Positions 12,635-12,708 of a stretch of DNA of 34,019 nucleotides are shown here, piece by piece. Source of the DNA: Sphingomonadaceae bacterium (lineage in GTDB: Bacteria; Pseudomonadota; Alphaproteobacteria; Sphingomonadales; Sphingomonadaceae); NCBI GenBank assembly GCA_009920915.1, contig RFZB01000011.1:1-34019 (forward strand), given 5' to 3'. Within the stretch, counting starts at the first letter, position 1. Every line of letters starts with the position of its first letter. The translations under genes were made by a program, and so were the position numbers. The notes under the pieces were generated by a model. That model saw nothing but the letters and a program-made list of their open reading frames with translations, did no database searches and had not been told where the DNA came from.

Positions 12635-12708
12635 CCAGCGGATCGCCTCAAGCAGATTGGATCGACAAAGCTTTTAAAGCCCGTCAGTTTGAGGCGCTTG
12701 ATCCGCAA
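12635..12708 (-). pseudogene. smc: Out-of-frame 5' remnant of smc (TTG start, LRIKRLKLTGFKSFVD, then frame break into NLLEAIRW)
   Basis: Reverse-strand translation from TTG at 12708 gives LRIKRLKLTGFKSFVD-PICLRRSAG*. The +frame [12 protein letters not shown] resumes at 12658. AAAGG precedes the TTG by a plausible SD distance. Confidence 0.85.

Follow-up and report, generated by a model that had tools for sequence, protein, structure and literature searches.

The broken smc gene and its neighbourhood

The window that we analysed, 34,019 nucleotides long, is the whole of contig C3 of a draft MAG (347 contigs, 95% complete, 4.4% contamination). It carries on its minus strand an smc gene whose reading frame is interrupted close to the 5' end (Table 1). 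The first-pass annotation had described a frame break followed by roughly 1,090 intact codons, and both points proved right. The frame that starts with the TTG at 12708 ends at the TGA of 12633-12631, and the smc sequence is taken up in another frame by the AAT at 12658, the first codon of NLLEAIRW. This second frame is open down to position 9356, with no further stops seen in it. The start codon of the remnant (TTG, 12708-12706) and its first 16 residues are the same as those of same-genus relatives. The would-be annotated start of the long frame is a GTG at 12634, and the resulting 1,092-aa ORF holds both the C-terminal signature motif and Walker B. In a profile search, the remaining smc frame scored 677 bits against TIGR02168 (SMC_prok_B), above the curated cut-off of 567. 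Its match to Pfam SMC_N begins only at profile position 37; hence, the profile segment that holds the P-loop has no counterpart here.

In the arrangement TGATG, the stop codon of the remnant shares its last base with an ATG that is in phase with the long frame. If the deletion is real, this overlap might allow re-initiation of translation, which would yield an SMC protein devoid of Walker A.

Table 1. Location of the smc parts, of the adjacent genes and of related features on further contigs of this MAG (G000). Positions without a contig name are those of the window.
Feature	Position	Strand	Description	Basis
smc 5' remnant	12631..12708	-	TTG start, 25 codons LRIKRLKLTGFKSFVDPICLRRSAG, then TGA 12633-12631	Direct reading
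TGATG overlap	12629..12633	-	Stop of the remnant overlaps in-frame ATG 12631-12629 of the long frame	Direct reading
Deletion junction GTCG-ATCC-AATCTG	12659..12662	-	Walker A GPNGCGKS of relatives missing	Nucleotide alignment
smc remainder, other frame	9356..12658	-	Signature motif and Walker B kept (LLSGGEQALTAVALIFGLF, PICVLDEVDAPLDDANIERF)
DsbA-like thioredoxin gene	12719..13447	-	Upstream neighbour, intact	PF13462; intact homologue in L022
DJ-1/PfpI family gene	8658..9359	-	Downstream neighbour, intact, overlaps the smc stop	PF01965; intact homologue in L022
rel/spoT	G000:C2 about 38.5 kb (about 38,500)		67 bp missing, frame broken
Enoyl-CoA hydratase gene	G000:C14 about 11.3 kb (about 11,310)		53 bp missing, frame broken
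mfd	G000:C11 1704-1795		46 bp extra, an exact tandem copy, frame broken
ScpA	G000:C113 21204-21848		Side by side with ScpB
ScpB	G000:C113 21905-22366		Side by side with ScpA

The remaining 1,092 codons of smc are under ordinary purifying selection. Compared with the closest relative, locus L022 (genome G006, with ~89% identity between the SMC proteins), smc has a dN/dS ratio of 0.068, and its intact neighbours have ratios of 0.073 to 0.094. As a long-dead gene would differ from its neighbours in this respect, either the break arose very recently or it does not exist in the organism. We also considered a genuine pseudogene with relaxed selection or further decay and saw no sign of it at a dN/dS of 0.068, but a very recent loss would look alike.

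The missing segment in relatives and in the rest of the genome

We aligned the junction with the closest relative and with eight other same-genus loci (L022, L011, L012, L020, L013 and L015-L018). The alignment placed a single gap of 64 bp between GTCG and AATCTG. Thus, the loss itself, put at about 67 bp on first reading, is borne out, and its size is corrected to 64 bp. The lost stretch codes for the residues between FVDP and SNLLEA. GPNGCGKS lies inside these 64 bp in the relatives, in agreement with the claim that Walker A, without which SMC cannot bind ATP (PMC4255302), has gone. Recombination at an ATCC microhomology (12662-12659), also proposed in the first-pass annotation, is possible, but the alignment does not prove it. 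The left edge of the gap reads CC, ATCC or ATCCAA depending on the relative, and the length of the microhomology therefore cannot be fixed.

The intact stretch or a close variant of it was found in all 80 Sphingomonadales loci checked, and the missing piece is present in 11 of 11 other same-genus genomes with a recovered smc start. Among the matches listed for a sample of 401 genomes of the family, only that of the window's genome starts at residue 36. The same junction was thus found in none of the relatives covered by these three sets. Within the window's own genome, we found neither the missing 64-bp segment at another place nor a second smc gene, and a search for MukB and MksF/JetA as replacements gave no match. 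The genes for ScpA and ScpB are present, next to each other, on another contig.

Several species can do without SMC (PMC11898615). We found no convincing SMC (TIGR02168), ScpA, ScpB or MksF/JetA in several genomes of the same family that are 94-100% complete, namely G043 and G125 (g32), G122, G182, G037 and G227 (g26), G032 and G118 (g21), G026 (g15) and G112 (g6). MukB was absent as well from the nine of these genomes in which we looked for it, and G122 encodes one 1,093-aa SbcC_Walker_B protein. In this one family, all known condensins seem to have been lost more than once.

Additional lesions in the same MAG and comparison with control assemblies

We searched the proteins of G001, a genome of the same genus, against the MAG, taking ~490 kb of the MAG and 2.0 Mb of G001; the MAG genes compared with a same-genus genome in this way amount to about 150 kb. 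Three more frame-breaking lesions of 46-67 bp came to light in conserved gene bodies on contigs of the MAG other than C3. Two are deletions, in genes that we take to be rel/spoT and an enoyl-CoA hydratase gene, and the third is an insertion in what is presumably mfd; we assigned these names on the basis of the protein sequences themselves. In mfd, the stretch CATCTGGG...GTTGAAA is present twice. No other perfect tandem duplication of at least 25 bp was found in 484 kb of the MAG, and there was none of that size in 2.0 Mb of G001 or in 0.83 Mb of controls. In the other same-genus genomes in which an orthologue was found, the rel and hydratase genes each form one uninterrupted frame, and the lesions of these two genes are unique to the MAG within the genus. 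The MAG yielded no second, intact copy of either gene. When gene ends were searched specifically, smc, rel/spoT, the hydratase gene and mfd stood out as the convincing cases, and no nonsense codon or frameshift of 1-2 bp could be confirmed in a genuine gene of the MAG. We interpreted the other apparent frame changes from that search as shadow ORFs or 5' extensions and left them out of the count.

Lesions of this kind and size are absent from the control assemblies. With the identical pipeline, no gene-body break of at least 20 bp was detected in 356 genes (523 kb) of 80 other Sphingomonadales loci, 151 of these genes (203 kb) coming from MAG loci, although these loci sample few distinct genes since all are smc neighbourhoods. 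The 207 genes of G001 yielded a single, doubtful case at a 5' end, versus three lesions in 124 genes of this MAG, a count from which smc was left out because it was our starting point. The comparison involves small numbers, with three independent lesions besides smc. An earlier, smaller control by gene count (4/166 versus 0/128; Fisher p 0.135, not significant) had been too weak, and it was for this reason that the control was enlarged. Hairpins that could have made reads drop out at the deletions were not significant (z -0.6 to -1.5), and contig-end overlaps, as an assembler signature, were found in none of the 23 contigs tested.

Origin of the smc break

The presence of three similar errors of 46-67 bp in unrelated conserved genes of the same draft genome makes an assembly mistake the most likely source of the smc break. 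The first-pass annotation had left two origins side by side, an assembly or sequencing collapse and a recent loss-of-function allele, and the evidence favours the former, given that the lesions of the MAG have no equivalents in the controls. We thus regard the break as very probably an error in the draft MAG that the organism itself does not share. One assembly shows deletions of 53, 64 and 67 bp together with a retained overlap of 46 bp, and no nonsense codons or frameshifts of 1-2 bp could be confirmed in its genes; this pattern looks like the outcome of a single error process during the joining of contigs. Two assembled stretches of ordinary smc would have been joined with the omission of 64 bp, at or near the word ATCC that they share. 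By the same step, rel/spoT would have lost 67 bp and the enoyl-CoA hydratase gene 53 bp, and mfd would have ended up with two copies of a 46-bp overlap. We infer that one contig-joining or gap-closing step lies behind all four lesions and that smc is normal in the organism itself. The contigs of the MAG probably hold further such joins. The smc, rel, mfd and enoyl-CoA hydratase genes are each dispensable in at least some bacteria, and the list of affected genes is therefore still devoid of one whose loss would be lethal.

The same break could be a real and very recent loss of function, in which a 64-bp deletion between ATCC-like repeats left an SMC unable to bind ATP, possibly produced by re-initiation at TGATG. 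The junction fits a microhomology of 4-6 bp if the lost copy was ATCC(AA), as in L011, L013 and L015. The genome has no second smc, MukB or MksF/JetA gene, and whole genera of the family live without SMC, ScpA and ScpB, which indicates that such a loss is tolerable. However, no relative shares the junction, ScpA and ScpB are retained, nonsense codons and small frameshifts are lacking, and lesions of the same size class in three unrelated conserved genes are too many for one otherwise clean organism, so that we consider a genuine deletion unlikely. It is quite improbable that the deletion is both real and fixed, i.e. that a sphingomonad has just lost its condensin ATPase with ScpA and ScpB still in place, which would represent the first phase of the SMC loss that other genera of its family show. 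If true, the function of SMC would have been caught while being lost.

The contamination of 4.4% and the fragmented assembly would also permit a mixture of strains, in which the assembler followed a minority strain that truly carries the deletion while most cells have a normal smc; a path through a de Bruijn graph normally requires real k-mers across a junction. Nevertheless, the assembler would have had to choose an independent minority lesion in each of four genes (smc, rel, mfd and the hydratase gene), which makes this scenario very unlikely. Finally, the intact long frame and its low dN/dS would be in keeping with a functional SMC variant that does without the canonical Walker A, or whose product is restored by frameshifting. 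Such a variant is extremely improbable, as Walker A is needed for ATP binding by SMC (PMC4255302) and the loop is kept in all relatives. Frameshifting cannot restore the loop because its codons are absent from the window and from the rest of the genome. With an assembly error as the preferred reading, the apparent knockouts of smc, rel/spoT and mfd in this MAG should not be taken as biology.

In sequence, start codon, signature motif and Walker B, the gene is akin to bacterial SMC (TIGR02168), including the intact smc genes of G006/L022 and G001. It also lies in the same neighbourhood as those genes, with DsbA-like genes and DciA upstream and the DJ-1/PfpI gene downstream. In contrast with intact SMC_prok_B proteins, its frame is broken and the 64 bp that include the N-terminal Walker A loop are missing. 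For isolate genomes, there is good documentation of spurious pseudogenes that arise through assembly, in a study that did not assess MAGs (BMC Genomics 2024, PMC11017572). The lesions described here differ from those cases in that the indels measure 46-67 bp and lie in a MAG. They are like them in that conserved genes are broken by indels absent in near relatives and that several such breaks occur in a single assembly.
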